Source: Candidatus Saccharimonadota bacterium
Lineage (GTDB): Bacteria > Patescibacteriota > Saccharimonadia > Saccharimonadales > AWTP1-31
Direction: 5' to 3'
NCBI GenBank assembly: GCA_003962975.1
Contig: RXKC01000030.1
Coordinates: 1,002-37,454, forward strand
Length of the DNA: 36,453 nt
Shown here: positions 13,825 through 30,921 of the stretch, piece by piece
Layout: each line of letters begins with the position of its first letter
Position numbering within the stretch: position 1 is the stretch's first letter
Notes under the pieces: model-generated
The model's database searches: none
Told to the model about the DNA's origin: nothing
The model's input: the letters and a program-made list of their open reading frames with translations, nothing else
Position numbers and translations under genes: made by a program

Positions 13825-13838
13825 TTATTGCTCCTTAA

Positions 13839-13901: not shown

Positions 13902-13902
13902 C

Positions 13903-14154
13903 TTATTCCTCCTTCCCGGCTAGTTCGACAATCTGATCAACACTTAAATCAAGGATTGTCTTTATTGTTCCTATTAACTTCCTATTTGCATCTCTTGCAA
14001 TAATGTCATTCGTTTCGTTTGAGTCTAAGATACTTGGCGTCCATCCTGAAATCTTTTCTAAGAACTTCATCACCTCTTTTCCTTGCGGACTATCAAAGGT
14101 GGCGTGTATATTGCTTTTCAACCCTGCTACATAGGCTTTATCAGATAAGCTCAT
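13903..14154 (-). CDS. Bbp19-like small phage protein
   Basis: 83 residues. The core HATFDSPQGKEVMKFLEKI, then a polar stretch ending in ARDANRKLIGTIKTIL, fits the Bbp19-like phage domain (named after Bordetella phage BPP-1), which is regularly encoded between portal and scaffold. Its biochemical role is not known; location suggests head assembly. The ATG overlaps the portal stop (ATGA), so the two are translationally coupled. Confidence 0.65.
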   Translation of the reverse strand: MSLSDKAYVAGLKSNIHATFDSPQGKEVMKFLEKISGWTPSILDSNETNDIIARDANRKLIGTIKTILDLSVDQIVELAGKEE

Positions 14155-15830
14155 TTATTACCTTCTTTTGCTTTCGCTAGGTTTACATCGATCTTGCTTC
14201 CCTTCTCAACTAAATCAGCCCCTTGTGTTGCCATTTGCATAGCCATTTGCTGTTGAGCCATTTGACCTTTAGCGGTACGAATCTCCTCAATCTCTGTATC
14301 ATCACGAAGAACTCGCATTGGCGCACCTGTAATAGCCCACACCTCATCAACCGTCTTATCACCAGAAACCTTATCCAATACATCAGGAATAAGCGGAGCC
14401 ATTTGACCGACAACGCTCAAGCCAGTCATTAAAGCATTTAATTCGGAACGTCTTTGAGCTTGTGCAAGCTGACCGATACAATCAATCTCGAATTGAGGGT
14501 CATCTCTCAACTCATCAGGCATTTCAGGAAGTTTGTTCTTTCGGTACAAAATACCAATGGTGCGGATGACGGCAGGATTCAGCATTTCGCTGATATATCT
14601 GCCAACAGCAGGCCCTAACATCGTCATCTTCTCATTGATACGCTCCATGACCTCTGGATTGTTCATTTGCTTAGTTACCCCATCAAAGGCTAAAAAGACA
14701 TCGTTATACATTAACGCCTTGACCTTGTTAGAGTAATACTCAATAGACACCATTCCAGCATTGACATCACCAAAGTTACCAAAAGCGAATATATCTTTAG
14801 AACCATCCATCTTAGCCTTGTTATAATAATTGACGGCTCTTGGATTAGCGTTAAAAGGCATAAGGAAGGCATTGTCTGGTATAGCAATCGGAGGATCTGT
14901 ATGCTTCATCATTGCCCGTAAGTTAGTCTTGGCGGCTGCATTTAAGATGCGAGCAAATGGCAAAGACTTCATTGCAGGAGAGAATCCCCAAGGAATAAAT
15001 GGACGCTTATCAAACCTATGACAGAAGGCAGGGAACTCATTATATCCGCCTTCTTCAACAATCATCTTGCCTTCAATATCAATCCAAGACGCTTCGATAG
15101 GCAAGTTCTTCTTGTCAGTCTTTTGTATCTCTCTGCGGTATCTTGTGGCGATATGAAGCAAGAAGTTATGCTTTTTATCTTGTCTGGTTTCAGCTTTAAG
15201 CTCATCTTGCATCTCTCTTGACAGCTTATCAGCACCAAACTTGTCAGCCGCTTGCCTTGCGGTATACTCAAACTCGATATAATACTCAACAACCCTGCCC
15301 TTGCTGTCCTCAACTAAGCAGATATTCTTGATAGGCAATGAGAAAAAACGAGCGTCATCCTCAACATCCTCTTCCTCAAGCATGGCACTTGTACCATATA
15401 CACCAGAGGATTTATAAGATGCGATAATCTGATTGTAGAAATTAGACTTATTTAGGGTGTAATTGACCTGTTCGCCTACTTCTTCAAGGAACGTAGCAAC
15501 ACGCTTATTGTTCTTCAGGGCAGGATTCTTAGCCCGTAAGCTAAACCATTTGCTTGTAGGGGGCGTTAGATAGTTCATAAATCCACTTGCCAACACATCA
15601 GCGGCTTCAAGCGTAGTTGAATCGAATAAATAAGTAGCGTTTAATTCTGAACCTGCGCTATAGGTCGTATTGACATTCTCCGCTTCGATATAGAAATAAT
15701 CATGCAGAACTTGCCAATAGGACTCAAAGTTAGAACGCCCACCCTTTAAGCTCTGGTAGTGAGCTATCTTCTGTTGCGCTCTTGGGCTGTCTTGTACGCC
15801 TTTAATCTTCTTTTGATCGCCTGTTTCCAT
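14151..15830 (-). CDS. Portal protein (head-to-tail connector, Head-tail_con family)
   Basis: 559 residues, normal for the family. Recognisable blocks: RSNFESYWQVLHDYF (about 32-46), LFDSTTLEAADVLASGFMNYLTPP (about 68-91, with the conserved A-x-x-x-L-A-x-G-x-x-x-x-L-T-P-P), KWFSLR, GTSAMLEEED, and a GFSPAMKSLPFARILN segment around 290. The C-terminal 60 residues are Gln/Met-rich and coiled. Twelve copies form the vertex channel for packaging and tail attachment. It overlaps the Ala-rich gene upstream by one base (TAATG). Confidence 0.92.
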   Translation of the reverse strand: METGDQKKIKGVQDSPRAQQKIAHYQSLKGGRSNFESYWQVLHDYFYIEAENVNTTYSAGSELNATYLFDSTTLEAADVLASGFMNYLTPPTSKWFSLRAKNPALKNNKRVATFLEEVGEQVNYTLNKSNFYNQIIASYKSSGVYGTSAMLEEEDVEDDARFFSLPIKNICLVEDSKGRVVEYYIEFEYTARQAADKFGADKLSREMQDELKAETRQDKKHNFLLHIATRYRREIQKTDKKNLPIEASWIDIEGKMIVEEGGYNEFPAFCHRFDKRPFIPWGFSPAMKSLPFARILNAAAKTNLRAMMKHTDPPIAIPDNAFLMPFNANPRAVNYYNKAKMDGSKDIFAFGNFGDVNAGMVSIEYYSNKVKALMYNDVFLAFDGVTKQMNNPEVMERINEKMTMLGPAVGRYISEMLNPAVIRTIGILYRKNKLPEMPDELRDDPQFEIDCIGQLAQAQRRSELNALMTGLSVVGQMAPLIPDVLDKVSGDKTVDEVWAITGAPMRVLRDDTEIEEIRTAKGQMAQQQMAMQMATQGADLVEKGSKIDVNLAKAKEGNK

Positions 15831-16180
15831 TATTGTCCTAACAAGGTTTTTTTACTCGTTGTAGCTTGAGTAGTCAACCCTAATGGTGATGTGTATATGC
15901 TTTGAGATGCCGTCATTGCCTTACGCTTTGCGTCTATTGCCGCTTGTGCCTGTCCTGATGCTGATGCTTGTGCGTCTTTTACGTTCTGTATAGCCGCAGC
16001 ATTTGCTACCGCTGCGTCATTGGCCGCATTCTTTGCGGCTTTAGCTTGCTTACTTGCTTGGACTTGAGATGTAACTGCCCCTGCCGCTGTTGCGGCTCCT
16101 GCGGCAATGGCGACTCCACCTAAAGTTGCTGATCCTCCTAAAGCTGCTCCTGCTGCGGCTGCAAACGGAATAAACGGCAT
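15830..16180 (-). CDS. Ala/Gly-rich small protein between portal and terminase
   Basis: 116 residues. The first 40 are an Ala/Gly-rich hydrophobic stretch with small-residue packing (FIPFAAAAGAALGGSATLGG), followed by a helical Ala/Lys/Gln-rich region (about 42-88). Proteins of this composition are common at this site in podophages and are often virion-associated, but no function is established. Preceded by AGGAGCAAAT before ATG. Confidence 0.45.
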   Translation of the reverse strand: MPFIPFAAAAGAALGGSATLGGVAIAAGAATAAGAVTSQVQASKQAKAAKNAANDAAVANAAAIQNVKDAQASASGQAQAAIDAKRKAMTASQSIYTSPLGLTTQATTSKKTLLGQ

Positions 16181-16188
16181 ATTTGCTC

Positions 16189-16590
16189 CTAGTTTAAATT
16201 AAACCGATGTAACTTACTGAAATCAGGACTCCACCAAGATACTGTCTTTGGTCTTACTTTGTTTATTGTGGTTCTTAATCCCCTTAATATCGTTTTGACG
16301 CTATCTGCGGCCAGCAAGATAAAGTGCATATTCTTTCCGTTCTCTGGTATTAGCCTTAGAAGAACGTCAACTTGTGTAATGTCTACTTTATCAAGGTTCT
16401 TATAGCTCTCATCGGTCAATAACAAAAATATCGCAACCCCCTTAATATGCCCTTCTTTGACCACTACAACCTTATCAGGACAAGCTCTAATACCTGCTTC
16501 TAACTGGTCAGGTGTAGGTATAACGTCGTTTCTTGACCCCTTATAACGTGAATAATAGCTATCCATAAGGTATTGAGCGACCTCTGTCAT
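16189..16590 (-). CDS. GNAT-fold-like phage protein (T7 gp13-position)
   Basis: 133 residues. The pattern of a start helix (VAQYLMDSYYSRY), a central strand pair (DKVVVVKEGHIKGVAIFLLL), a strand with NGKNMHFILLAADS and the end GLRTTINKVRPKTVSWWSP fits the GNAT-like acetyltransferase fold of small phage proteins encoded beside the terminase. The acetyl-CoA-binding Q/R-x-x-G-x-G/A loop is not evident, so the enzyme may be inactive and the protein structural. The ATG overlaps the terminase TGA. Confidence 0.45.
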   Translation of the reverse strand: MTEVAQYLMDSYYSRYKGSRNDVIPTPDQLEAGIRACPDKVVVVKEGHIKGVAIFLLLTDESYKNLDKVDITQVDVLLRLIPENGKNMHFILLAADSVKTILRGLRTTINKVRPKTVSWWSPDFSKLHRFNLN

Positions 16591-17939
16591 CTTATCCCCG
16601 CTATCCCAAAGAGAGATTCTTCTTTAAACTGTGTAGTCTGTCTTGGTATATACTGCCTTTCCTGCTCTTGCTTTACATCTCCAATTAGGCTAACAGCCAT
16701 AATTAGAGCATCTGCCATGTTGGGAGACTTAACTTTATCCTTACGCATCTGTTCCTTTGAGATTAAGATTTTTCTCTGTTGATGGTCGAACGTATATCGT
16801 AAGGTGATAAGCTCCCTAATCAATCCTTCATCTGTGATCGCAATATGTCCTCTTGATACTAATTCCTTTAATCTGTACGTATTTACTGTCCGCATATTTG
16901 CATAATCTTTATTGTCTTTGTATGCAAGCGTTGGATTCCTAAAACCAGTAAATGCGTTTATTCCTCTTCCTTTGTTAAGAGTATCTAATACAGGCCCACC
17001 AATTCCATCCTCATCAATTATGCCCCTATCGACTTTATGATCACTGAATATAGATAAGAAGCGTCCTGTTGAGTAATTAGTATCTTTCTGACCCCACTCT
17101 TCAACATGGATAACTTCCCAATGCAATGCTCCCATTTGTTGAATAATAACAACCGCACACTTATCATCACCATATCTAGCAACATCAAAACCTGCTAACC
17201 TCATCCCGTAATTAGGTCTTAATTGATACCTGTCATTTCCTGTAGCAATAAGCTCTTCTAACGAAAATACAGCATCTTCTGACTTGCTTAACGGCTTTCC
17301 TAGCCATATATGCTCATAGTCATCTATGCTTCGCTCCTTACATTCTTGAGCTTCATTCTTCAAAGCCTGTGTGCAGTATTTGTTATCGGTGTAGTTTATG
17401 TGGACATGAAGGCAGTCTTTACGTCTTGCAAACATCTCAAAGGCAGGATCATTCTCAACGTGCCTATTCATTGTAAAGAATATCTTTGCGTTATCTTTAC
17501 GAATTGTAGGGATTAGAACGTCAATAGTCTGCTTGGTTAAGGCTTGCGATTCATCAATCCAGACGATATCAATACCTTCCATACCCTGAATGTTAAATGC
17601 TCCCTGCTGTCTAAAGCCTCTGAATGTAATCTCTGTGCCACTTTGTCTATGAATTAACTTAGAAGCCTGAATCTCAAAATCTAGATTGTGTTGCCTTACT
17701 AAGTCAGCCATTAAAGAATACACCGATTCATTTATTGTATTCTGTGTTTCACGTCCACAGACAATCCTAAGAGGAAGTTTCTCGGCTATATATAATATCA
17801 ATCTTCCTACAGACTGGCTTTTTGAACCACCTCTTCCACCTTCAGCAAGGAAATAACGATAGTCGTTGATATTGACTAAGAAAGGAATTAGCTTTTCTGG
17901 TATGTCTAACATCGCTGGGAGTTTAATTGTTGTTCCCAA
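16587..17939 (-). CDS. terL: Terminase large subunit
   Basis: 450 residues. ATPase domain: Walker A GGRGGSKS at 34-41 and Walker B VWIDE at 126-130. Nuclease domain: FDVARYGDD at 251-259 (first metal-binding Asp), IIDEDGIGG at 307-315 and a C-terminal NMADALIMA with Asp410. This is the motor that pumps DNA into the procapsid and cuts the concatemer. The Walker A with GGRGGSKS is typical of the PBSX/Terminase_3-like group. It overlaps the small subunit gene by 17 bases and is followed by the GNAT-like gene and portal. All catalytic positions seem intact. Confidence 0.93.
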   Translation of the reverse strand: MGTTIKLPAMLDIPEKLIPFLVNINDYRYFLAEGGRGGSKSQSVGRLILYIAEKLPLRIVCGRETQNTINESVYSLMADLVRQHNLDFEIQASKLIHRQSGTEITFRGFRQQGAFNIQGMEGIDIVWIDESQALTKQTIDVLIPTIRKDNAKIFFTMNRHVENDPAFEMFARRKDCLHVHINYTDNKYCTQALKNEAQECKERSIDDYEHIWLGKPLSKSEDAVFSLEELIATGNDRYQLRPNYGMRLAGFDVARYGDDKCAVVIIQQMGALHWEVIHVEEWGQKDTNYSTGRFLSIFSDHKVDRGIIDEDGIGGPVLDTLNKGRGINAFTGFRNPTLAYKDNKDYANMRTVNTYRLKELVSRGHIAITDEGLIRELITLRYTFDHQQRKILISKEQMRKDKVKSPNMADALIMAVSLIGDVKQEQERQYIPRQTTQFKEESLFGIAGIR

Positions 17940-18216
17940 TTCTTAGCTCCAATGGTGTTCCGTCTATTTGAACTGTTGGCATCTCTGATACAACAACTTC
18001 ACCTGAATGTTCTGTTGATGACATATCAGATATAAACTTCTTCGCAACCGCAACCATAACGCTCTTATCATTAAACGCTTCTTCTGCAACCTTTTTCCAA
18101 AAATCTATTCCACGCTTCTTTCCTTCTTCCTCTAAGGCTTGACGCAACATATCTTTCTCTGCGTTCTTTGGCCTTCCATTTCTATTTATGCGAGGATCAC
18201 CTTTAACAAATGGCAT
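17923..18216 (-). CDS. Terminase small subunit-like protein (DUF5681-type N-terminus)
   Basis: 97 residues from the ATG at 18216, chosen over a start ten codons upstream because AGGA lies correctly before it. The N-terminus FVKGDPRINRNGRPKN is the DUF5681-type motif of small terminase-like DNA-binding proteins; the following part is helical (EKDMLRQALEEEGKKRG, then FWKKVAEEAF). It is directly upstream of, and overlaps, the large terminase gene. Expected to recognise the packaging site and load the motor. Confidence 0.75.
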   Translation of the reverse strand: MPFVKGDPRINRNGRPKNAEKDMLRQALEEEGKKRGIDFWKKVAEEAFNDKSVMVAVAKKFISDMSSTEHSGEVVVSEMPTVQIDGTPLELRIGNNN

Positions 18217-18349
18217 AGTTATTCCTGTTGTTTTACAATTCAGCACAATATTTACATAATTTTACTTTTTTCAAGAACCTCATACTATAAGTATGAAGCA
18301 TTTGGTGGGAGTTTCAAGATTTACAACAAAAAGAAGCAATATATTATAA
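18217..18349 (-). promoter_or_regulatory. Promoter/operator region in front of the late (packaging) operon
   Basis: One of the few true intergenic gaps. On the minus strand a -35-like TTGAAA (18317-18312) is followed after 16 bases by CATACT (18295-18290), a -10-like box lying inside a perfect 15-base palindrome, CATACT-TAT-AGTATG (18295-18281). A second TTGAAA lies closer to the gene in an A/T-rich stretch. The overlap of a symmetrical site with the -10 box suggests a repressor-controlled sigma-70-type promoter for the late genes. No transcript data are available here, so this is a prediction. Confidence 0.45.
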
Positions 18350-18496
18350 TTATACTTTTATTCGTGCGGTAGGTCTTACTTGGTCGGTCTTTCTCTTGGT
18401 ACGCATATGGAGGATGTGCCTCTTAAATTGACAAGATGGATGTCCACAAGTTTTTCTTAGCAATTCTCTTTTATTGCAATAAGGGCAAAGTTTCAT
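18350..18496 (-). CDS. 48-aa zinc-ribbon peptide at the end of the glycan cassette
   Basis: Starts MKLCPYCNKRELL and contains CxxC and a second Cys pair (CGHPSC), followed by a His/Arg/Lys-rich tail. A single zinc-binding knuckle binding nucleic acid is likely. I chose the ATG at 18496 because it overlaps the glycosyltransferase stop (ATGA) and has GGAG at the right distance; longer in-frame starts exist 11-15 codons upstream. Last gene before the late promoter region. Confidence 0.6.
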   Translation of the reverse strand: MKLCPYCNKRELLRKTCGHPSCQFKRHILHMRTKRKTDQVRPTARIKV

Positions 18497-19077
18497 CTTA
18501 GCTCCAGCCATAGTGTGATTGATTCTTTGAATGTTCTCCATATTGAGCTTAACTTCATACGTCTACGGACATTAGCTTCAATTGGAACTTCTATCATTTT
18601 ATATCCGTTCTGTTTGGCTACTGCTAGTATCTCAAGGTCAAAGAGAAACCCGTTATTATAAAATTCTGGGATTGTGTGGCGTTTAAATAATTTAATTCCT
18701 GTCTGGGAATCAACCTTAATGTTAAAGCATAGAGCAATATAGTATCTTGATAAGAATGTAAGTATGCGCCTTGAAAGTAGTCCACTAATAGGCTTGACAC
18801 CTACTGCAATATCATAATCTTCCATGAACGGAAATAATCTCTTAATCATTCTTGGGTCAATCTCTCCATCCCCATCTAAAAAACATATAAACTCTCCATC
18901 TGCTTCGGGAAGTCCTTGTCTTATCGCCCATCCCTTCCCCATTCCATGCGGATCATTTGCTACTATGATTTGTGCATAAGGGTACATTTCTGCGATTTCA
19001 TCAACGAATTGCTTGATGTTTTCTTCGTTTCTGCAAGGCAAGATTATTGATAGCTTCCGCTTCACATCACTACGCAT
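18493..19077 (-). CDS. GT2 glycosyltransferase, dolichol/polyprenyl-phosphate sugar synthase-like
   Basis: 194 residues. LPCRNEE at 13-19 is the nucleotide-sugar-binding start, NDPHGMGKGWAIRQG at about 41-55 is the conserved G-K-G-x-A-I/V-R-x-G of the DPM1/polyprenyl-phosphate glycosyltransferase group, and DGDGEID at 68-74 holds the DxD metal motif. Such enzymes load a sugar on polyprenyl phosphate at the inner face of the membrane. Its neighbour is a membrane GT-C enzyme of the kind that uses such lipid-linked sugars. The C-terminus lacks the long membrane domain some homologues have. Strong ribosome binding site (AAGGAGGGGAAG). Confidence 0.85.
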   Translation of the reverse strand: MRSDVKRKLSIILPCRNEENIKQFVDEIAEMYPYAQIIVANDPHGMGKGWAIRQGLPEADGEFICFLDGDGEIDPRMIKRLFPFMEDYDIAVGVKPISGLLSRRILTFLSRYYIALCFNIKVDSQTGIKLFKRHTIPEFYNNGFLFDLEILAVAKQNGYKMIEVPIEANVRRRMKLSSIWRTFKESITLWLELR

Positions 19078-20378
19078 ATCTTCCCCTCCTTAAAGTCCTT
19101 TATTAACTTTCCTGCTTCTTGTTCCTGACCTTCTGGTATGTTATCCTGCGCTTCCTTCAAAAACTTCATAGCTTCTTGCTTCTGACCAGCTATCATCAAC
19201 ACTGCTGATATATTAAATAATAACTTAAACTCCTTTGGGTTTATATTCTTTGCCATTACCCATAAGATCAAAGCCTCTTGATAGCTTTTATTGTTCCATC
19301 TGCTCATTGCCCTTACGTGCCAAGCAAACCACGAATCAGGGCTATTCATACAGGAATGCTCCATTAAAAAATACTCATCCTGATAGCAATCAATGAAGAA
19401 CCACATCTTAACCGCATACATGGTGACAAATACCGCCACAAGGACAGGATTGGTGTAAATTAAGGACGCAAGCACAAACATTAGACCGCAATTAGGTAAA
19501 TAAGCGTATCTTTCCGCTAATTCTTGACTCATACGAACTAAATTACAATAGGGAGCAATACAGACACACCACCAAAGCATCCCAAAACAGATCATATCCC
19601 ATTTATGAGTATAAATATATAATAGCATCCCTAAAATAGAAACTAAACCAACCCAAAAGAACCTGCATAAATTATACGCCTTATGCTTACGGCATCCTGC
19701 AATACTTTCAAGCGTTGAATGATAAAAAGTAGTCTTAAAAGGTATAATCGCATGACTTAGGTAAAATCCAAACGTCTTTACGGCTAAAATCAGCTTCTTT
19801 GGATGAAATCTCTTATCCTCCGCAAACATCTCGGTACTCATCCTCTGATAGACATTCTTGTTAAAGTTTCTCCATTGATACATCCATATTAGAGGCATGA
19901 ATATGAGCAAAATAGGATATGGTGATCCTATAAACGCTATTGGGGCTAGGAAGCCTGCATTGTAATAAGTTGCTCCAAGCAGTAGTAGGGGAGCCATGAA
20001 TGGAATTGAGAGCGCCCATACCATTCCTAGCGCAGATAAAGCATATCCACGGCCGCTTATCCAAACACTCGCCTGATTGTTTATAGGATTGAAGCTGAAA
20101 AGCAACGCCGCAACAAAAGAAACGTCATTTTGTCCAAAGCCTAAATAAATGCCAACACAAACTAAAGCATGGATTATCATTGTTAAGGCATGGTCATTGA
20201 CAGGAGAACTCTTAGAACGCCCTTCTAATACCCAGAATGCCTGAACTAGCTTATTCGTGTACCTTGGTCTATTATATGAGGCAAGGTCATCTGAAACGTA
20301 CTTATACCCAAGCGTCTTAAAGTAGAACGCAAGGTTTGCCAATAGAATTACGCAGATTTTCTCCAAAACTTCCTCCAT
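19062..20378 (-). CDS. Membrane GT-C glycosyltransferase of TMTC type with C-terminal TPR
   Basis: 438 residues with about nine or ten hydrophobic helices. SDDLASYNRP at 29-38 contains the acidic residues expected in the first extracytoplasmic loop of GT-C enzymes. NPINNQASVWISGR at 97-110 and ELAERYAYLP at 286-295 match the HPxxTEAV-x-x-x-x-GR and E-R-x-x-Y-x-P motifs known from TMTC-type O-mannosyltransferases. Residues about 350-412 form one or two TPR units (AWHVRAMSRWNNKSYQEAL, then LLFNISAVLMIAGQKQEA). GT-C enzymes transfer sugar from a polyprenyl-phosphate donor on the outer face of the membrane. The polyprenyl-phosphate sugar synthase-like GT2 next to it would supply the donor. Start confirmed by GAGGAGAA before the ATG inside the preceding gene. 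Confidence 0.7.
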   Translation of the reverse strand: MEEVLEKICVILLANLAFYFKTLGYKYVSDDLASYNRPRYTNKLVQAFWVLEGRSKSSPVNDHALTMIIHALVCVGIYLGFGQNDVSFVAALLFSFNPINNQASVWISGRGYALSALGMVWALSIPFMAPLLLLGATYYNAGFLAPIAFIGSPYPILLIFMPLIWMYQWRNFNKNVYQRMSTEMFAEDKRFHPKKLILAVKTFGFYLSHAIIPFKTTFYHSTLESIAGCRKHKAYNLCRFFWVGLVSILGMLLYIYTHKWDMICFGMLWWCVCIAPYCNLVRMSQELAERYAYLPNCGLMFVLASLIYTNPVLVAVFVTMYAVKMWFFIDCYQDEYFLMEHSCMNSPDSWFAWHVRAMSRWNNKSYQEALILWVMAKNINPKEFKLLFNISAVLMIAGQKQEAMKFLKEAQDNIPEGQEQEAGKLIKDFKEGKICVVM

Positions 20379-21433
20379 TTCTCCTCAATAACTAACCGCC
20401 CACCCCTTATTAAATAGGCAAAATCTTCCCAACATCTTATATCCTTTATTTTGTTATACCAAAAATCGGGATAATGCAATACGTTATACACCATTGGCAC
20501 ATACTTATGCCCAATAGAATTAGGATTAGGCTTTGTACGAGGCGGCGAATAAACCGATGCCTGAGCAGTTTTAACATATCCTTTCCTCAAAAGATAATGG
20601 ATCATTTTTAGAGTTCTCTTTGCATCTTCTTCGGTTTCCCATTCATATCCGAACATTGATGTTAAGTGGGGATAAAGACCTGCTTCACTCATTTTCTTTA
20701 ATATCTCGATAGTCTTGTCTGCCTTCTGTCCTTTTTGTATCTTATCTAGCGTGTGCTGATTGGCTGATTCAACCCCTACAAGGATAAACCTAAACCCTGC
20801 ATCTGCCATCATCTTGTAGTCTATATTTACAGGCTTCATATTACAGCCAATCTTAATCTTCTTGTTTCGTCCGTTTATCTTCATCTTCATACAAAACTCT
20901 TCAAGCCATTCTCCTACAGGGAAGGTTCCAGAATCATCAAACACTTCCTTATAGCCATTAGCAATTAAGTCGTCTATCTCTTCAATAACGTGGTCAACCG
21001 ATCGTATTCCTCTTTTCTCTCCTGCTTGTAGCTTTGCGGTATCTACACAGAAAGTACATTTCCCATACCAACAAAGATTTGATGCCATCATGTGTGTAGC
21101 TGGATGGAAGCGGTAGTTTCCGTATGACTGCCAACGTGGATTCTTTGCATCTGTAAACTCTCTGTCAGGATAAGGTAATTTCTCAAAAGGAACGTCTATT
21201 TGTTCGTCAGATTCTATAGAAAACTCCCCCTTTATGGTCAGATAATCTTTGCCTTTATGCCTATATAATTCACAATCTATCTCTGATGCAGATGACTCTG
21301 CACCCCATAAAACCTCATGCCCTTGATTCCTTAAATACGTGGCATACATAGCCAAATGGACAGGGTATACCCAGACCATTTTTTCATACTGTCGCTGTTG
21401 ATTCGTAGGACTAAGAGGAAACAGGTAACGCAT
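20348..21433 (-). CDS. Radical SAM enzyme (B12-type radical SAM relative)
   Basis: 361 residues. The cluster motif is C121-x4-C126-x2-C129 (NLCWYGKCTFCVD), a one-residue-longer spacing than the canonical Cx3Cx2C but of the C-x-W-x-x-C-x-F-C kind known in some subfamilies. Downstream features fit the radical SAM barrel: EVFDDSGTFPV, IKIGCNMKPVNI, FILVGVESANQHTLDKI (the GxESA strand) and a GYEWETEEDAKRTL region. The first 90 residues may be a shortened cobalamin-binding-like domain (HLAMYATYLRNQGHEV). Substrate unknown; in this operon a sugar, lipid carrier or methyl transfer is likely. It begins within the end of the HNH gene. Confidence 0.75.
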   Translation of the reverse strand: MRYLFPLSPTNQQRQYEKMVWVYPVHLAMYATYLRNQGHEVLWGAESSASEIDCELYRHKGKDYLTIKGEFSIESDEQIDVPFEKLPYPDREFTDAKNPRWQSYGNYRFHPATHMMASNLCWYGKCTFCVDTAKLQAGEKRGIRSVDHVIEEIDDLIANGYKEVFDDSGTFPVGEWLEEFCMKMKINGRNKKIKIGCNMKPVNIDYKMMADAGFRFILVGVESANQHTLDKIQKGQKADKTIEILKKMSEAGLYPHLTSMFGYEWETEEDAKRTLKMIHYLLRKGYVKTAQASVYSPPRTKPNPNSIGHKYVPMVYNVLHYPDFWYNKIKDIRCWEDFAYLIRGGRLVIEEKWRKFWRKSA

Positions 21434-21857
21434 TTAGATACTCCTCAATTTTTTTTACTTTCTCAGGATTATCCTTAAAAAGTTCATATAGCCTTATTTC
21501 TATATTACATTCATGGCAAGTCAGCCCTCTAACCTTACTCGTCTTGTGATCGTGTTCTATGCACAACCTAATCGTTAATTCCGATTGATGTTTATTACAA
21601 AGCTTACATCGTCCTTGTTGTGATTCATATATTTTATCGTATTGATCTGGTGTGAGACCATACTTTATCTTCATCCTTCTACGATAATTCCGTTCTCTTG
21701 TTTCTGGATGTACCGCATACTTTCTCTCTCTTTCTATTTGTTTTGGCTGTTTACGCCAATGGTAACGACATAATCCTTTCCCATAATGTATTTCTTTACA
21801 ATCAACAACCGAACAAAAATTTTGTGACTTATTTTTTGATCCTTTTGGTCTGCCCAT
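21411..21857 (-). CDS. HNH endonuclease of endonuclease VII type, free-standing homing-like insertion
   Basis: 148 residues. An N-terminal MGRPKGSKNK and zinc-binding Cys/His (C15, C20, C30, H33) precede the Endonuclease_7 pattern: YGLTPDQYDKIYESQQGRC, CKLC at 84-87, IEHDHKT at 100-106 and KVRGLTCHECN. These zinc-finger HNH nucleases act as Holliday-junction or homing nucleases. It splits the glycan operon between the SDR and radical SAM genes. A truncated copy of the first codons of the radical SAM gene lies just before it, and its last 23 bases overlap the start of the intact radical SAM gene, as expected of a mobile nuclease gene that restores its host reading frame. Confidence 0.85.
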   Translation of the reverse strand: MGRPKGSKNKSQNFCSVVDCKEIHYGKGLCRYHWRKQPKQIERERKYAVHPETRERNYRRRMKIKYGLTPDQYDKIYESQQGRCKLCNKHQSELTIRLCIEHDHKTSKVRGLTCHECNIEIRLYELFKDNPEKVKKIEEYLNALPVSS

Positions 21858-21860
21858 AAT

Positions 21861-21911
21861 TTATTCTTGCCTCTGTTGATTATATGGGCTAAGAGGAAAT
21901 AAGTATCTCAT
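21861..21911 (-). pseudogene. Truncated duplicate of the radical SAM gene start
   Basis: ATG at 21911 overlaps the TGA of the SDR gene (ATGA), the usual junction here. The 16 codons read MRYLFPLSPYNQQRQE then TAA. The intact radical SAM gene at 21433 starts MRYLFPLSPTNQQRQYEK: 14 of the first 15 residues agree, but many codons differ synonymously (AGA/CGT, TTA/CTG, CCA/CCT, AGG/CGA, CAA/CAG). The HNH gene follows after three bases. This is the remnant of the original gene start left at the nuclease insertion site. Confidence 0.75.
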
Positions 21912-22918
21912 TTTAACCACCTCGGATTCTTTAAAGTCCACTCAACCATCTTACGCATAGATTCAAGCAGGTTTACAGGAAACTTATATCCATAACTTTC
22001 TAGCTTCTTTCCACATAGTCCATAATGAGGGTCATGACCGGGGCGAGATGAATGAGCATCTACCAATTCATAATCAAGAGGCTTTCCCATAACATCAGCA
22101 ATAAGTTTTGCAATGTCCAAGTTAGATATTCTCTTCTCTCCAACGATATTAAATCTCTCTGGTCTATCCACATCAGGGAATTGAGGGGCTTTGACATTCT
22201 TTAACAGAAATAGAATTGCATCAGATGTGTTTCTTGCGTGAAGCCAAAATCTTGATCCCGGCTCTCCACTCTTTGGGTCATAATGAACTTGCACCTTCTC
22301 TCCATTCAAAATCTTCTTTATAACCATAGGAACATACTTCTCTGACGACTGATACTCACCTGCGGTATTCATAATGTTTGTAATAATCAACGGCACTCCG
22401 TATGTCCTCCAATAGCTGATAGCAATAGCCTCTTGACACGCCTTGCTTGCTGAATAAGGGTTTGAGGGAAGGATTGCCGCCCACTCAGGATGAGTTGCCT
22501 TCCCATCTGTTGCCCCATATACTTCATCTGTGCTTATCTGAATGAACTTCTCGGGCTTGACTGTCCTTGCGTATTCAAGCATATTTAAAGCTACATTCAC
22601 GTTATTAAGGACAAAAGGAACAGGATTTGCTATTGATCTATCTACATGAGAATCTGAAGCGAAATTAACCACATAATCAATATGCCCTATCTTGTCTATA
22701 AGAATATCAGATAAAGGGGCAGATAGATCATGGGTATATATGGTTACTCTATCCTTATGCTTCTGATAATGTTCACTATCCGTAAGACGTTCTGATATGC
22801 CTTTATGCCTCCAACTATCAATACCAATAATCTCCCAATCAGTATTTACTAAGAAATGGCTCAAACAATGTGACCCAATAAATCCTCCAATACCTGTCAA
22901 TAATACTCTTTTACTCAT
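21908..22918 (-). CDS. NDP-glucose 4,6-dehydratase-like SDR (RmlB-type fold)
   Basis: 336 residues, usual length. NAD-binding GIGGFIG at 9-15, the STDEVYG motif at 128-134 (Thr, Asp, Glu of the dehydratase triad) and YSASK at 154-158 (catalytic Tyr and Lys) are all intact. The late segment SSRPGHDPHYGL resembles the D-R-P-G-H-D-x-R-Y of dTDP-glucose 4,6-dehydratases. It would turn an NDP-hexose into the 4-keto-6-deoxy form, a precursor of deoxy sugars for the nearby transferases. A substrate other than dTDP-glucose is possible. Preceded by AAGGGGAAAAG. Confidence 0.8.
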   Translation of the reverse strand: MSKRVLLTGIGGFIGSHCLSHFLVNTDWEIIGIDSWRHKGISERLTDSEHYQKHKDRVTIYTHDLSAPLSDILIDKIGHIDYVVNFASDSHVDRSIANPVPFVLNNVNVALNMLEYARTVKPEKFIQISTDEVYGATDGKATHPEWAAILPSNPYSASKACQEAIAISYWRTYGVPLIITNIMNTAGEYQSSEKYVPMVIKKILNGEKVQVHYDPKSGEPGSRFWLHARNTSDAILFLLKNVKAPQFPDVDRPERFNIVGEKRISNLDIAKLIADVMGKPLDYELVDAHSSRPGHDPHYGLCGKKLESYGYKFPVNLLESMRKMVEWTLKNPRWLK

Positions 22919-22928
22919 CTTTTCCCCT

Positions 22929-23816
22929 TTAGTTTGGTCTTTCGATTACACTTGCAAATATTCTTGCTATCCTGTGCCTGTAAAAACATGATAGATGCCG
23001 TAGCACTGCTCCCGGTAGTAAAAGTGCCGTTAGAGAATAGAACCAGAAAGCTAGGCTTAGAAGAACATTTCTGTCGTTTTTTACAACTAGACATATTTCC
23101 TCCCATAGTAATTTAGGCGCACGATTCTTCAACTGAATGAACATAGGAAAATCTCTAAAGTCACGACCTACTAAGTCATACCAGTTCTTTGTTGGGCTTT
23201 GGGTATAGTAAGAAGTCTTTGTACCCGTATTGCCTCCGGGATGAAATCTTGCGGCGATAGTGTCATACTCAAGCATTGTCCATTTCCAATCTTGCAGATA
23301 TTGAGCCACTATATAGGGCATCTCGATAAATATGTCATTTGTATAATCTAATTGGTCATCTTTCATCTTCCTAAAAGCCATGCCTGAAGGACAACAGGAA
23401 GATGTTAGGATGTTCCTATCTCTGCACACTCCAATAGCTCCTTCTTGTCCATTCATAAAGAAGTAATAATATCTTCCAATCACACCAATCATTGGATCAC
23501 CCATGTTAAATTGATGGACTACATCTGTTGCTACTAAAGGAGATGTAAACAAATCGTCTGCACATAAGAAGAGAATATACTTTCCCTTTGCCTCTCTTAT
23601 CAAAGCTGTTAAGGTATATCCAATACCCATATTTTCAGGATTATCAATTACTCTTATGTCTTCAATGGAATTAAGAACCTCTCTTGTCTTATCCGTAGAT
23701 CCGTCATTGATAACTAAAACTTCCTTATCTGGATATGCTTGGGATAAAGCAGACTCGACACTTTCTCGAATCGTTTTTTCACAATTATACGCAGGGATAG
23801 CAATAGTCAGCTTCAA
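22929..23816 (-). CDS. GT2 family glycosyltransferase
   Basis: 295 residues from a TTG at 23816, which overlaps the previous TGA (TTGA) and would begin directly at the GT-A domain (LKLTIAIPAYN); in-frame ATG starts at 23852 and farther upstream are alternatives. Motifs: NDGSTD at 37-42 and CADDLF at 85-90 (the D-x-D-like metal site). A predicted C-terminal hydrophobic segment (VLLSLAFWFYSLTALLLPG) may bind the membrane. It is about one-third identical in layout to the next transferase (shared RYY, PSGMAFR and W-D/Y-TIA-x-R blocks), so these two are probably paralogues. Confidence 0.8.
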   Translation of the reverse strand: MKLTIAIPAYNCEKTIRESVESALSQAYPDKEVLVINDGSTDKTREVLNSIEDIRVIDNPENMGIGYTLTALIREAKGKYILFLCADDLFTSPLVATDVVHQFNMGDPMIGVIGRYYYFFMNGQEGAIGVCRDRNILTSSCCPSGMAFRKMKDDQLDYTNDIFIEMPYIVAQYLQDWKWTMLEYDTIAARFHPGGNTGTKTSYYTQSPTKNWYDLVGRDFRDFPMFIQLKNRAPKLLWEEICLVVKNDRNVLLSLAFWFYSLTALLLPGAVLRHLSCFYRHRIARIFASVIERPN

Positions 23817-24724
23817 GGTCTTTTTACCTCTCTTGTTGTCCACTTGCCCCATGAGGCTCGATATATCTCTGGGATAATCTTCAAAATTGGTCTTGGCGTA
23901 ATAACCGAAATGAAAGCAAAAAATAGAAAACAAGGATTGATCAGATTGACAGGCTTTAGTTTAATGAAGTTCCAAATCTCTTTTAGCACCGCATCTGTAG
24001 TAAAATAGTTCTTGATCTGAATTAAAGACGTAAAATCATTTTGTAACGCAGAACCACCGACCTTTGTCCATTCTTCAATAGGAGATGTTTTCCAACGTTT
24101 TAAGTAATAATCTTTGCTCCTTGAAATGCTCTTATGAATACGGACTGCGATTGTGTCCCATCTCATAATCTCATAACTCCAACCCTTACTCAAAACGCAT
24201 GAAACCATTGAGGAAACTTCGACAAACATCTTATTGGATAGTTCGCACCAACACTTACCACCAAATATAGCTTCTCTTCTGAAAGCCATACCTGAAGGAT
24301 TGTTAGCCAACTCGATTACATCATCACATCTCCATGCCCTTACAGGACTTCTGTCGCCATGTACAAATTGATGATAATACCTGCTGACGTGTCCTATATT
24401 CTTGTTAGATTTGAATATCTCCACAACATCTGATATCACCCTATTGTCAGTAATAATATCATCAGAGCAAAGCAGATAGATAATATCTCCTGTAGCATAA
24501 CTAATGGCTAAGTTAAATGCCCCACCTGTTCCGCTTGGCTTATCGCTTTTAAAATACTTTACTTGTGGAAATGAGAATATAGCTAGGCTTCTTGGATTGT
24601 CTGTTGATGCGTCGTCGAGGACTATAACTTCTATGTTTTTGTGATCTTGTTTTAGCGCAGAAATTACTGCATCTGAAAGTAGATGCGCTTGGTTGTGAAC
24701 CGCTATGCAGATTGAAACCTTCAT
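23813..24724 (-). CDS. GT2 family glycosyltransferase, paralogue of the following one
   Basis: 303 residues from ATG at 24724, where the fold begins (MKVSICIAVHNQ); a TTG 12 codons upstream is possible, and neither has a good ribosome binding site. Motifs: LDDASTD at 36-42, LCSDD at 85-89, then NNPSGMAFRREA and a RWDTIAVRIH segment shared with the gene at 22929. The C-terminus (NPCFLFFAFISVITP) is hydrophobic. Adds a sugar to a glycan acceptor in the cytoplasm; donor and linkage unknown. Confidence 0.8.
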   Translation of the reverse strand: MKVSICIAVHNQAHLLSDAVISALKQDHKNIEVIVLDDASTDNPRSLAIFSFPQVKYFKSDKPSGTGGAFNLAISYATGDIIYLLCSDDIITDNRVISDVVEIFKSNKNIGHVSRYYHQFVHGDRSPVRAWRCDDVIELANNPSGMAFRREAIFGGKCWCELSNKMFVEVSSMVSCVLSKGWSYEIMRWDTIAVRIHKSISRSKDYYLKRWKTSPIEEWTKVGGSALQNDFTSLIQIKNYFTTDAVLKEIWNFIKLKPVNLINPCFLFFAFISVITPRPILKIIPEIYRASWGKWTTREVKRP

Positions 24725-24768
24725 ATTCAAAATAGTACAATCTGATAGATTATATTTCAAGCATTATT

Positions 24769-25455
24769 TCATTTATTTTTGTAATATATAAACGCCCGAA
24801 CTGCTAATAAAAACACAATCCCTAACGTCAATATCGGATGCTTGACTAATTTTTTCCATTTGCCATCTTGAACAAATACATCAAAACATCGGTACTTCAA
24901 ATTAAGGCATGGATCATTCTGGTATTTCTCTGCGTATCGTTTCATACTTTTTGTGTAGTACGCCTTCTTTTTGCAGTATTCAAGAAACGGGATGTCATCG
25001 TGATGAAACAACGGAAGTTTAGAAACTGCCCTTTTACCTATAATCCTCTGACCAAAACAGGCATCTTCGGGGCCATTTAGCGTTTCGTCAAAAAGAGGGC
25101 AAGAAGCCTTTAAAACCGCTCTTGGAACATCAATAGCCGTTCCTGTATAGAAAGTACGCTCAAAAGCCCTTATACGCCCAAAGAACGACCTTGCAACAAT
25201 GATTTCAGGGATGTAAACCGCTACTGCCCCGTTTTTAATCAATTCCTCACACTCTTCAACGAGTCCTATAGATAGGCTCTGGTCACTATCCAGCCATATG
25301 ATGATTTCACCGCTTGCCTCTTGAATTCCCATATTTCGCTGTTTGGAACGCTCAAATCCCCTGTTTATCTCAATAAACTCAACGCTTGTTGGCAAAGATT
25401 CGATCAGTTTGGTCAAATCCCTTCCATGATTTGCTACTATAATAGATGTTCTCAT
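24769..25455 (-). CDS. GT2 family glycosyltransferase, membrane-anchored
   Basis: 228 residues. The GT-A start SIIVANHGRDLTKLIESL, NRGFERSKQRNMGIQEASGE (nucleotide-sugar site) and LDSDQS at 55-60 (DxD) are clear, as is NGPEDACFGQRI at 127-138 (the catalytic E-D of the second half). A single membrane segment closes the protein (about 206-224). The ATG overlaps the stop of the FAD enzyme (ATGA) with GAGGTGGA before it. Its position downstream of a mutase-like enzyme suggests it could use that product. Confidence 0.8.
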   Translation of the reverse strand: MRTSIIVANHGRDLTKLIESLPTSVEFIEINRGFERSKQRNMGIQEASGEIIIWLDSDQSLSIGLVEECEELIKNGAVAVYIPEIIVARSFFGRIRAFERTFYTGTAIDVPRAVLKASCPLFDETLNGPEDACFGQRIIGKRAVSKLPLFHHDDIPFLEYCKKKAYYTKSMKRYAEKYQNDPCLNLKYRCFDVFVQDGKWKKLVKHPILTLGIVFLLAVRAFIYYKNK

Positions 25456-26564
25456 AGTTCCACCTCAAATCCGTCCTTAATAGAGTCTACCATTCCTTGG
25501 AACTTATGTTTCCCGTACCGCCCTGTACTGATTATGTCTCTTTCTCTAAGCCAATCAATCTCCTTCTTAGCATCTCCTTTGTTATACTCCCATGTGTAAG
25601 CTACCTTAACGATAGTGGGGTCTATGGTTATAACCTTTCCGATCATTCCCCAATCTTGTAATTCCTTAATGACTTCAAAGGAAACCCGTTCAATATCTGG
25701 TTGATCACCATAATAAGCTATTTCGACCGCCATTCCAACCTTTCCTTCTGGAGCTTTTGACTTATCTACATTTGAATAGAAACAAAGCCTATGGAAACCT
25801 GACTTGCAGAAAGGTACATACAGCCAATGTTCATCTGGTGTATTAACCGCCTTATCTGCCCCTATGTTAATTACTAAGACAGATGTGCAAGGCAATTTGA
25901 AATCACCTTCTCTACCGCATAATCTAAGCAACCTTCCTAGCGGAATGGTAGAAATCAACTTCTCGTACTTGACGTGCTTGTTCTTGAAGAAAACTATCTT
26001 TTCCTTTGTGTCTATGCCTATCGCTTCATGGTTATAGTTTATCGTACACTTCTCTGCCATCTTACTGACTAAATCAGTTAATCCGTTTACAGGGTCACAG
26101 AACGTGCTTACGAAACCAACTCCACCAGCCGGGGGGCTTTTGAACTCCTCTACTTGAACTACCTGATCGTATAGCCCTGCCGTATACTTTTCATTGAAAG
26201 GATTGAAAAATAGATTACACTCTGCTTGACTAAAAGTATTTCCAAGCCATTCTTTTAAACTTCCTTTATTTACTGCATTAACTTTTTGAGCTGTTGTCTG
26301 TAAAGGATATGGGAAAATATGGTTATAATACACCCCTGCTTTTCGTTCGTATTCGTTTACTGGAACCAATGACTTAATGTAGTCTAAGCCTACTCCCTTT
26401 CCAAATAGGAAGTGAGGGCCACCATTTGAAAACTGAAAACCATCCTTGGCATAAGTAGTACAAATACCTCCTGCGTGATTAGAGGCTTCGTATATTGGAA
26501 ATCCCGTTTTTATGCCTGCTGCCAGACCTGTGAATCCTGATCCTAGTATGATTGTACTCATCAT
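25452..26564 (-). CDS. FAD-dependent oxidoreductase/mutase-like (UDP-galactopyranose mutase / protoporphyrinogen oxidase superfamily)
   Basis: 370 residues. ADP-binding LGSGFTGLAAG at 7-17, an acidic strand end (YEASNHAGGICTTY, with Glu26 for ribose binding) and the GGPHFLFG segment are typical of the FAD/NAD-binding amine-oxidase-like enzymes in polysaccharide clusters. The C-terminal ISTGRYGKHKFQGMVDSI is the conserved flavin-contacting end. In this context a sugar-nucleotide or glycan-precursor reaction such as ring contraction is likely, but the active-site residues that define true Glf cannot be checked by eye. The ATG overlaps the previous TGA. Confidence 0.7.
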   Translation of the reverse strand: MMSTIILGSGFTGLAAGIKTGFPIYEASNHAGGICTTYAKDGFQFSNGGPHFLFGKGVGLDYIKSLVPVNEYERKAGVYYNHIFPYPLQTTAQKVNAVNKGSLKEWLGNTFSQAECNLFFNPFNEKYTAGLYDQVVQVEEFKSPPAGGVGFVSTFCDPVNGLTDLVSKMAEKCTINYNHEAIGIDTKEKIVFFKNKHVKYEKLISTIPLGRLLRLCGREGDFKLPCTSVLVINIGADKAVNTPDEHWLYVPFCKSGFHRLCFYSNVDKSKAPEGKVGMAVEIAYYGDQPDIERVSFEVIKELQDWGMIGKVITIDPTIVKVAYTWEYNKGDAKKEIDWLRERDIISTGRYGKHKFQGMVDSIKDGFEVEL

Positions 26565-27445
26565 TCCCCCTGTTCAATCTCTCGTTTAATTTGTTTAGTG
26601 ATATAACTATATCTTTGCTCGGGAGTTTTACTCATCCACTCTGTTGTTACTGGAGCAGAACAAATAATAGCATTGTATCTTTTTACTATAAACCTTATAT
26701 CTTCCTCACTAATCTCCCTCTTCTGTGCAGTACAGCAATATAACGGATTTTCTCTAAGCTCAATGTACTTTTTAAATGTTAGTTCTTGGAAGTCTTGGTA
26801 TAGTTGAAGCCTGTCTAACTCTATACGTTCACAACTGGCAGGTTTGCTTCGATAGTTCTCTAAAACTTTCTTAGCTTCCAACATAACAACTGGAACGGCC
26901 GCCCGACCAGCGTATTCCATTTCCATATGAGATATACAGAGTTCTAACGCTTTAACAAGCTCAACTACCTCACTATCCTTGATGTCTAGCTTATTAGGAC
27001 ACGCATCAGTAGTCACTTGAGCGTTAGAATGATTACCTAACATAGATGTTGCTGGACACTTAGAACAGAGATACACTTGCCCATTGTTATGCCATACCCA
27101 CTCATGTTCACACTTGCTGTCTAACTGCTCAGTAGCATAGGCAGGATTTCTCATTTCTTTATTGCATTTACCACAGATAGTATATGGGGTTGTGGCTGGC
27201 AATGGTTTATGATTACACTTATTAACCACTGTGCTTGCGTCTTTAACAGGTTTACACCTACATATTTCATCACCCAATAAAACTCCACCACATAACCTAC
27301 AAGCTGACTCCTTAACCGCTGTGCTTCGTTCATGCTGTTCGTCGAGGTATTCTAAGACTGCTGAATTAAATGCAGCTTGTGGCGACATTCCAGCTTTTAC
27401 GATTCTATCCATTCTCTCATTTATCTCGGTACTCGGCTTTTGCAT
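26561..27445 (-). CDS. Multi-zinc-ribbon protein of unknown function
   Basis: 294 residues from the ATG at 27445 (GAAGG before it; an upstream start ten codons earlier is weaker). At least four Cys pairs: CRLCGG, CRC, CGKCNKEM and CSKCPATS, with extra Cys and His between, in the first 150 residues, then a helical C-terminal half with YCC and a final charged helix. It looks like a chain of zinc knuckles for nucleic-acid or protein contact. First gene of the block ahead of the glycan cassette and coupled to the FAD enzyme by ATGA, so possibly co-regulated with it. Confidence 0.5.
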   Translation of the reverse strand: MQKPSTEINERMDRIVKAGMSPQAAFNSAVLEYLDEQHERSTAVKESACRLCGGVLLGDEICRCKPVKDASTVVNKCNHKPLPATTPYTICGKCNKEMRNPAYATEQLDSKCEHEWVWHNNGQVYLCSKCPATSMLGNHSNAQVTTDACPNKLDIKDSEVVELVKALELCISHMEMEYAGRAAVPVVMLEAKKVLENYRSKPASCERIELDRLQLYQDFQELTFKKYIELRENPLYCCTAQKREISEEDIRFIVKRYNAIICSAPVTTEWMSKTPEQRYSYITKQIKREIEQGE

Positions 27446-27446
27446 A

Positions 27447-27599
27447 TTAACCTTCTTTCGGTTTGTCAATTCCACACCTACGACAGAAATTATTTTGACA
27501 GATCGTTGTTTTAATTACTAATCCACCTTCTTCACATCTCTGGTTGTAAACAATAAACTTATGCCCAAACAACCAACACCAAAAAGTTCCTGTTCTCAT
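27447..27599 (-). CDS. 50-aa small Cys-rich protein
   Basis: Starts MRTGTFWCWLFGHKFIVYN and has a C-terminal zinc-binding pattern (C-x5-C-x2-C around TICQNNFCRRCG). The hydrophobic, aromatic start is followed by a Cys knuckle, a pattern seen in small phage zinc proteins. An AGAGGTGAACGG site precedes the ATG, and its TAA lies one base before the next start codon. Function unknown. Confidence 0.6.
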   Translation of the reverse strand: MRTGTFWCWLFGHKFIVYNQRCEEGGLVIKTTICQNNFCRRCGIDKPKEG

Positions 27600-30225: not shown

Positions 30226-30867
30226 TTAAGCGGTTTGCTCACACAAAAACCTAATAGCCTTCTCAATCTTCTCGAACTCTTTTGTTCCACGTTTCGTTTC
30301 AAATTCTTCTTTACCATCTAGCCATTTTAACCATTCCGCAAACGTCTTTTGAGCGCATCCAACCTGTAAGTGTTTATCTGTCTTTGTTAATATCCATTTG
30401 CAGTAATTAGTTAATACAATAGGACTTGCTTTAGCCCAAGCATTGCCATACACCCGAGCATCGCCATACACCCAAGCATCGCCATACACCCGAGCATTGC
30501 CATACACCTGAGCATCGCCATACACCCAAGCATCGCCATACACCCGAGCATCGCCATACACCCAAGCATCGCCATACACCTGAGCATCGCCATACACCCG
30601 AGCATTGCCATACACCCGAGCATCGCCATACACCCGAGCATTGCCATGCACCTGAGCATCGCCATACACCCGAGCATTGCCATACACCTGAGCATCGCCA
30701 GACACCCAAGCATTGCCAGACATATCTAAACAGCTTTCTTTCTCAATATAACCGCCCAAATCGCCTTTAGTTATGTATGAGAAGCTAGTTAGAGCTTTTA
30801 TGCGAAAAACTTTTACACCAAAAATCGTTACTTTAAAATCTGTTTCAATTAGCTCATATTTTTTCAT
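30226..30867 (-). CDS. Left-handed-beta-helix hexapeptide-repeat protein with phage C-terminal domain
   Basis: 213 residues from ATG at 30867 (AGGAAAGTGAAT before it; a GTG two codons upstream is possible). Layout: N-terminal cap (1-45, MKKYELIETDFKVTIFGVKV), 16 near-perfect hexapeptides of the form G-D/N-A-x-V-Y (about 48-144) and a C-terminal domain (about 150-213) with DKHLQVGC, seven residues, then W. The hexapeptides fold as a left-handed beta-helix. The same C-terminal domain ends the pentapeptide-repeat protein at 31243. No transferase active-site His is evident in the repeats, so a scaffold or DNA-mimic-like role is more likely than acyltransfer. Confidence 0.75.
   Translation of the reverse strand: MKKYELIETDFKVTIFGVKVFRIKALTSFSYITKGDLGGYIEKESCLDMSGNAWVSGDAQVYGNARVYGDAQVHGNARVYGDARVYGNARVYGDAQVYGDAWVYGDARVYGDAWVYGDAQVYGNARVYGDAWVYGDARVYGNAWAKASPIVLTNYCKWILTKTDKHLQVGCAQKTFAEWLKWLDGKEEFETKRGTKEFEKIEKAIRFLCEQTA
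30435..30722. repeat. 18-bp tandem repeat array (16 units) coding the hexapeptides
   Basis: Units such as catcgccatacacccgag follow each other with changes mainly at the codon for the variable residue (Arg, Gln or Trp). Such an array can gain or lose units by slippage, changing the length of the beta-helix. Confidence 0.85.
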
Positions 30868-30921
30868 ATTCACTTTCCTATTTTTTTTATAACCAGTTAA
30901 TCACACGCTAATTTAAATTCG

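Follow-up and report, generated by a model that had tools for sequence, protein, structure and literature searches.

A glycan island with a TMTC-like membrane transferase in uncultured HTVC010P-related podoviruses

Described glycosylation systems and the phage cassette

In the haloarchaeal Agl pathway, AglJ primes dolichol phosphate, AglG, AglI and AglE extend the primed lipid and AglB carries out the transfer (PMC3871713). The TMTC1-4 O-mannosyltransferases and their prokaryotic relatives, in which a GT-C glycosyltransferase is joined to tetratricopeptide repeats (TPRs), are polytopic proteins whose active site is marked by a DD pair in the first extracytoplasmic loop and by the arginine of an ERxxY motif before transmembrane helix 10 (TM10), with the C-terminal TPRs on the catalytic side (PMC7801869). 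The phage GtrABC and the ArnC-ArnT systems alter the host surface by pairing an undecaprenyl-phosphate sugar synthase with a GT-C transferase. The hypervariable regions of pelagimyophages and cyanomyophages bear glycosyltransferase, nucleotide-sugar and radical SAM genes (PMC7029224). Here we analyse a stretch of 36,453 nucleotides (the window), corresponding to bases 1002-37454 of a 37,454-bp contig (RXKC01000030.1) binned in a 1.21-Mb metagenome-assembled genome (MAG). The contig is a podovirus genome with its coding genes on the minus strand, and a cassette of glycan genes occupies window positions 18350-26564. Our favoured reading, held with moderate confidence, is that the cassette represents, in this phage, a glycosylation island that an uncultured lineage of HTVC010P-related podoviruses normally carries, and that the island puts a lipid-linked glycan outside the infected cell.

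The cassette shares with the Agl pathway a logic in which a family 2 glycosyltransferase (GT2) resembling dolichol-phosphate mannose synthase (DPMS) would prime a lipid monophosphate, further GT2s would extend it and one polytopic enzyme would transfer the product. It differs in being phage-borne, in having no known sequon, and in its polytopic enzyme, GTC, which is TMTC-like and not of the STT3/AglB type. GTC resembles TMTC1-4 in all the features given above; unlike them it is viral, shorter (about 440 aa), carries few TPRs and is unmatched by the Pfam TMTC model. The pairing of synthase and transferase recalls GtrABC, whereas the island has no GtrA, many more genes, a TPR-bearing transferase, and radical SAM and UDP-galactopyranose mutase (UGM)-like enzymes. 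Pelagimyophages and cyanomyophages are large myophages with the variable region near the tail fibres, in contrast to the present 40-kb podoviruses with a fixed core of three genes (GTC, rSAM and GT2d) at the terminase. The portal and major head proteins of the window phage are nearest to those of HTVC010P-type pelagiphages (about 32% and 41% identity, respectively) and the module order is shared with HTVC010P. That phage differs in giving no match to GTC or rSAM, and no cassette is annotated in the portion of it that was inspected. A Wzx/Wzy polysaccharide locus differs by its flippase, polymerase and initiating transferase, none of which was seen in the islands.

The cassette comprises the following genes (window coordinates):

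25452-26564, minus strand: FADmut, UGM-like FAD enzyme, first gene of the cassette and part of its variable portion (matches UGM structure 4dsg)
24769-25455, minus strand: GT2a, family 2 glycosyltransferase (PF00535, E-value = 1.2e-8) with a C-terminal hydrophobic segment at residues 207-225 (hydropathy)
23813-24760, minus strand: GT2b, family 2 glycosyltransferase (PF00535, E-value = 1.5e-22) with a C-terminal hydrophobic segment (hydropathy)
22929-23933, minus strand: GT2c, family 2 glycosyltransferase (PF00535, E-value = 9e-27) with a C-terminal hydrophobic segment (hydropathy)
21908-22918, minus strand: RmlB-type nucleotide-sugar 4,6-dehydratase (6bi4, TIGR01181)
21411-21857, minus strand: Endonuclease VII/HNH protein, not a glycan gene (PF02945, E-value = 1.6e-19; PHROG endonuclease VII)
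20348-21433, minus strand: rSAM, radical SAM enzyme, core gene (PF04055, E-value = 3.8e-16; CX3CX2C motif)
19062-20378, minus strand: GTC, polytopic TMTC-like GT-C-type transferase with C-terminal TPRs, core gene (motifs, hhalign)
18493-19077, minus strand: GT2d, polyprenyl-phosphate sugar synthase-like GT2, core gene (profile A9)
18350-18541, minus strand: zinc-knuckle peptide of 63 aa overlapping the end of GT2d (CPYC...CGHPSC motif)

Nine of these had been described in an initial annotation as adjoining genes on one strand. All nine are present on the minus strand, and profile and structure database searches place them in the families then claimed. They do not adjoin throughout: the Endonuclease VII gene is a tenth open reading frame (ORF) between the RmlB-type gene and rSAM. 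ATGA-type coupling, said to join most of them, is limited to 4-nt overlaps at the two junctions of FADmut, with GT2a and with the upstream neighbour ORF304; the remaining junctions are overlaps of 16-49 nt or spacers of 8-50 nt. The TTG starts listed for GT2b and GT2c are probably too early, since the relatives of these proteins begin near 24724 and 23819, the likely positions of the true starts. In the nearest relative, phage contig L001, the GT2c homolog aligns from residue 41 and the GT2a homolog is 67% identical.

Conservation of the core genes in viral contigs

Contig L001 bears the entire cassette in the same order, minus the endonuclease: its spot is taken by an unrelated 97-aa ORF, and there is no Endonuclease VII homolog in the L001 cassette. 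A search for the same gene order in related phages, proposed with the initial annotation, recovered it in L001 and in four further contigs (L008, L025, L026 and L033) at 49-78% identity. Scans based on short peptide patterns, which miss distant relatives, identified 15 loci by rSAM sequence and 42 by GTC profile in 2.9 million viral contigs. Among 84,980 species genomes scanned in this way there was no rSAM, and GTC was found at two loci only, both in MAGs and one of them a 40.8-kb phage contig. None of rSAM, GTC and GT2d was found in 50,697 named phages (tblastn).

These distributions bear on the possibility of a misjoined assembly or a recent capture of a host O-antigen locus, to which the initial annotation would have turned had the genes been confined to host chromosomes beside such loci and never been seen in other phages. 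The occurrence of the contig in a bacterial MAG of different GC content would suit such an origin. However, the core genes are present in dozens of viral contigs, the same genes and order recur in many independent ones, the core genes follow the portal, the cassette agrees in composition with the remainder of the phage (r = 0.71), and the genome collection holds the core genes only in the two MAG contigs mentioned above. On gene-order recurrence, portal co-inheritance and matching composition, we reject host capture or misassembly, to which we assign next to no probability.

Among 28 portal-selected loci with at least 3.5 kb upstream of TerL, GTC is present in 24, rSAM in 23 and neither in four, a prevalence biased upward by the portal query (A6), which was made from cassette-bearing phages. 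Wherever both genes are seen in a related contig, GTC is upstream of TerL. The 29 islands selected by GTC contain rSAM in 25 cases and GT2d in 23; each of the other glycan-type clusters occurs in at most 14. Pairwise distances of GTC and GT2d are strongly correlated (0.86), and both follow the portal (0.84 for GTC, 0.80 for GT2d) more closely than TerL does (0.65); GT2d and GTC are thus co-inherited with the portal. rSAM usually overlaps GTC or closely precedes it. Two GTC islands (L054 and L098) have no detected rSAM; therefore GTC does not strictly need it. The variable genes encode GT2 and GT1/GT4 glycosyltransferases, epimerases/dehydratases, DegT aminotransferases, methyltransferases, transketolases and extra radical SAM enzymes. 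GTC, rSAM and GT2d form the core, and the sugar-building genes are exchanged between viruses.

The 435 island ORFs of at least 90 aa include as polytopic proteins GTC, one extra GT-C-like protein (L056) and one small membrane protein, so that GTC is the sole recurrent one. Within the same size range, neither the window nor about 30 related islands yielded a flippase, a polymerase or a polytopic initiating phosphoglycosyl transferase, all of which would have been expected to show up. The cassette had been presented as a whole pathway running from sugar-nucleotide enzymes to a membrane transferase. A phage-borne glycan cassette with these two ends is what we observe; a whole pathway in the strict sense is not, as flippase, polymerase and initiating transferase are missing and the dTDP-sugar route is represented by the RmlB-type step alone. 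The island is a real, lineage-wide phage glycan island, and its core pair is not described in the literature found.

The enzymes and a proposed lipid-linked route

GTC exhibits the signatures of the TMTC active site. The DD motif in the first extracytoplasmic loop (D30-D31) is present in 35 of 35 ungapped family sequences. In the ERxxY motif before TM10 the arginine is invariant (R290, 36/36) and the glutamate nearly so (E289, 34/36), and the distal tyrosine is kept in half of the members only (Y293, 18/36, with alanine in 16/36). The predicted model (pLDDT 90) exhibits helices at 335-430, which correspond to the C-terminal TPR region; the TPR_2 domain is found in 19 of the 36 members. Searching 287 genomes from the same phylum, we identified cellular relatives of GTC, mostly proteins of 480-660 aa made of a transferase and TPRs. 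With the TPRs removed, the GTC membrane domain aligns with these cellular proteins over 314 columns (hhalign 98.3%, E-value = 1.5e-14), against 0.1% for a reversed-profile control. In the genomes of relatives the Pfam TMTC model remains below threshold, with two weak matches within the right ORFs. The model suggests that the TPRs lie outside the membrane on the catalytic side, as in TMTC, because the ERxxY arginine must face outward and two further TM helices follow.

The GT2d profile A9, built from 22 phage homologs, matches dolichol-phosphate mannose synthase (E-value = 1.7e-8), GtrB sll0501 (3.9e-6) and ArnC (9.7e-6). An acidic DGD triplet (the DxD motif) and TQTGxK are conserved in these 22 homologs. 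The solved structures nearest to GT2d all belong to polyprenyl-phosphate sugar synthases, and the best NCBIfam match is AglJ, far under its curated cut-off. By its sequence GT2d is a putative polyprenyl-phosphate sugar synthase of the DPMS/GtrB/ArnC type. The classic pairing in phage seroconversion is that of GtrB with a GT-C enzyme, and GT2d and GTC resemble it. Together with the GtrB and ArnC matches, this suits a conversion of O-antigen or lipopolysaccharide (LPS), in which GT2d as a GtrB would make an undecaprenyl-phosphate sugar, GTC as a Gtr/ArnT-type enzyme would add single sugars to LPS or O-antigen, and the other glycosyltransferases would alter lipid-linked precursors of the host; the glycosyltransferases of pelagimyophages have been interpreted likewise (PMC7029224). 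However, there is no GtrA-like small polytopic flippase among the ORFs of at least 90 aa in about 30 islands, the TPRs and TMTC motifs of GTC are not Gtr features, and several extension enzymes per island exceed the needs of a one-sugar change. We regard this explanation as possible, and hold it only tentatively; a glycolipid acceptor of the kind used by ArnT or Gtr enzymes is the chief competitor of the reading that we favour.

GT2b weakly matches the PglI and AglG models; the AglG matches, given by GT2b and GT2c, are far under the curated cut-offs. The C-terminal hydrophobic segments of GT2a, GT2b and GT2c are of consequence for two other roles. The initial annotation had considered a glycosylation of virion proteins. 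In such a role, the GT2s and sugar enzymes, working in the cytoplasm, would modify proteins of the capsid or tail and so help to evade recognition. The GT2 catalytic domains are indeed cytoplasmic and the structural module adjoins the cassette. Yet GT2a-c bear membrane segments, GT2d is of the lipid-carrier type, and the core enzyme GTC is itself integral to the membrane, with a catalytic motif that would face the periplasm or exterior, whereas podovirus virions assemble in the cytoplasm. The role is thus disfavoured for GTC and improbable as a whole; host-surface modification, the other role then proposed, fits better, its anti-superinfection purpose being one that we infer. A role in DNA modification was rejected, because the GT2s have membrane segments and we saw no enzyme that modifies bases.

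The FADmut profile (A3) matches UGM 4dsg over its full length (residues 2-368, E-value = 1e-23), including the FAD fold. Mapping on the FADmut alignment what we take to be the functional residues of Aspergillus UGM, we find equivalents of Y317, R327 (R259 in FADmut), Y419 and R447; the equivalent of R182 is absent and N207 is replaced. Because these two presumed substrate residues are not kept, we class FADmut as UGM-like only, and its substrate may be other than UDP-galactose. The RmlB-type enzyme finds its best PDB match in a dTDP-glucose 4,6-dehydratase (6bi4, E-value = 1.2e-43) and keeps the TDEVYG and YxxxK motifs. It matches TIGR01181 with an E-value of 6e-60 and 203 bits, under the 365-bit equivalog cut-off, and the nucleotide of its substrate is uncertain.

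rSAM has a CX3CX2C motif, and its sequence resembles the HpnJ/BchE class. In the alignment (A5, 33 sequences) and the predicted model (pLDDT 89), the cobalamin-type N-domain is cut down to a strand-helix-strand ahead of the core, and no DxHxxG motif is seen in either. This shortened N-domain disfavours a cobalamin-dependent radical SAM methylase, which we do not retain. The best PDB fold is AprD4 (E-value = 8e-10, TMq 0.59), a radical SAM 1,2-diol dehydratase acting on a sugar; the two sequences are far apart, and MiaB and others reach nearly equal fold scores. rSAM probably performs a further sugar change such as deoxygenation, a reaction that is a guess because MiaB scores nearly as high as AprD4. 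The same subfamily is borne by five unrelated phage contigs (L018, L020, L009, L011 and L021), where its neighbours are glycosyltransferases, second radical SAM enzymes, methyltransferases or other polytopic proteins. rSAM therefore moves between phage groups.

A priming synthase and an outward transferase that are co-inherited, tethered glycosyltransferases, exchangeable sugar enzymes and no polymerase together point to a short polyprenyl-phosphate glycan transferred outside the cell. We infer the lipid carrier, the flipping, the class of acceptor, the rSAM reaction and the biological benefit. At the inner leaflet, GT2d would charge undecaprenyl phosphate with a sugar, which would then be extended by GT2a, GT2b and GT2c, tethered to the membrane through their hydrophobic segments. 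The RmlB-type dehydratase and the UGM-like enzyme would supply sugars from host nucleotide sugars, with the probable further change by rSAM. A host flippase would turn the lipid-linked glycan over, and GTC, with its DD/ERxxY site and TPRs both outside the membrane, would move it to an extracytoplasmic acceptor. Because the TPRs would sit beside the GTC active site, a protein bound by them is a more likely acceptor than LPS. In all likelihood the island assembles a small sugar chain on a lipid of the membrane and links this chain to a putative acceptor on the exterior of the infected cell. By analogy with the proposal made for pelagimyophage glycosyltransferases (PMC7029224), the phage probably gains from a change to the receptor surface. 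Receptors would thereby be concealed from rival phages or from the progeny of the same phage.

Several points weigh against this reading, in addition to the bias of the portal query. No GT-C Pfam model, including TMTC PF08409, matched among the 36 GTC members; hhalign of GTC to cellular PMT-family proteins was negative; and GTC matches no GT-C structure of the PDB, searches of which recover the TPRs only (the best Foldseek matches include TPR-type proteins only). The GT-C label of GTC rests on its motifs and TMTC-like relatives. Because of these negative comparisons we call GTC, a putative polyprenyl-linked sugar transferase, TMTC-like and not a TMTC member. The flippase required by the proposed route is encoded in none of the about 30 islands, and no gene proves a protein acceptor over a glycolipid. 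The distances of rSAM track the portal less (0.57), and TerL not significantly. GT2d, directly after GTC in the group of the window, lies 3-7 kb before it in some islands. Finally, the four portal relatives devoid of the island indicate that it is not essential to the lineage.

A more specific form of the lipid-linked reading is a phage lineage with its own en-bloc protein glycosylation, similar to AglJ-AglB but using a TMTC-like transferase. The priming enzyme and the transferase would be inherited with the capsid genes and the extension genes exchanged, each phage marking the same host envelope protein with a different sugar chain. We put this forward as a conjecture that is possible but doubtful.

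Phage genome, host and biological meaning

The initial annotation located the cassette in a phage genome between early genes and the terminase, which the gene content of the window bears out. The left part encodes TerL (PHROG match, E-value = 4.5e-43), head-tail adaptor, major head, tail and internal virion proteins, and the right part Erf, an exonuclease, RusA and a DnaD-like loader; a portal protein is encoded as well. The immediate neighbours of the cassette are:

26561-27475, minus strand: ORF304, with several CxxC pairs, upstream neighbour overlapping FADmut by 4 nt; no Pfam or PHROG match
16587-18246, minus strand: TerS (17923-18246) and TerL (16587-17939), the fixed downstream boundary of the island

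Homologs of the zinc-knuckle peptide adjoin TerS/TerL in five related contigs (L001, L008, L022, L025 and L026). The peptide matches no Pfam or PHROG family above cut-off and may take part, with the terminase genes, in packaging or regulation. The structural module holds a protein of the Concanavalin/LamG lectin fold (9542-10237; PF13385, E-value = 1.4e-19), a candidate binder of surface glycans. The early genes include YdcK-type beta-solenoid and pentapeptide-repeat proteins (30226-30873 and 31243-31737). Promoter and terminator scans gave only the level of shuffled background, and Rfam and tRNA searches gave no match. Contig bases 952-1001 are a scaffold gap of 50 N ending exactly where the window starts, and the 37,454-bp contig has no terminal repeats and may be missing some kb.

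The MAG has a 16S gene that by inspection resembles Saccharibacteria. The GC content of the phage is about 39.5%, compared with 45-49% in the bin, and tetranucleotide correlations are 0.50-0.71 among phage segments and 0.06-0.48 between these and the bin contigs. Window positions 1-18300 share no long DNA and no convincing spacer-like match with the bin and 40 relatives. On these grounds a Saccharibacteria-like host is not accepted, and the bin is weak evidence for one. MAGs of Methanoperedens and Nanoarchaeota contain two phages of the same lineage (L060 and L061), probably as contamination. Split transketolase genes stand beside glycosyltransferases in two related phage islands (L042, 2356-3769; L047, 1720-2842). 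A Fonsibacter genome has been reported with partial-domain transketolases (PMC6811365), a possible hint to the hosts.

The island might instead be an auxiliary metabolic module serving the host, through adhesion or resistance to grazing, during a long infection or lysogeny and not in competition between phages. Such a function has been proposed for the O-antigen sugar genes of Patescibacteria phages (PMC12911398), and the size of the island is considerable for a phage of 40 kb. However, we recognised neither an integrase nor a repressor among those window proteins that were searched, and we consider this function unlikely.

Phage glycosyltransferases are usually regarded as optional single genes. 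Here a glycan island made of a fixed core and exchangeable sugar genes occupies about one fifth of a 40-kb genome, and most of the members sampled from this widespread, uncultured lineage of podoviruses carry it. It yields a virus-borne family of TMTC-like transferases and a radical SAM family, neither of them matched in named phages and the latter not matched in the reference genomes searched either. The island makes it testable whether phages decorate the envelope proteins of their hosts by a lipid-linked route of their own.

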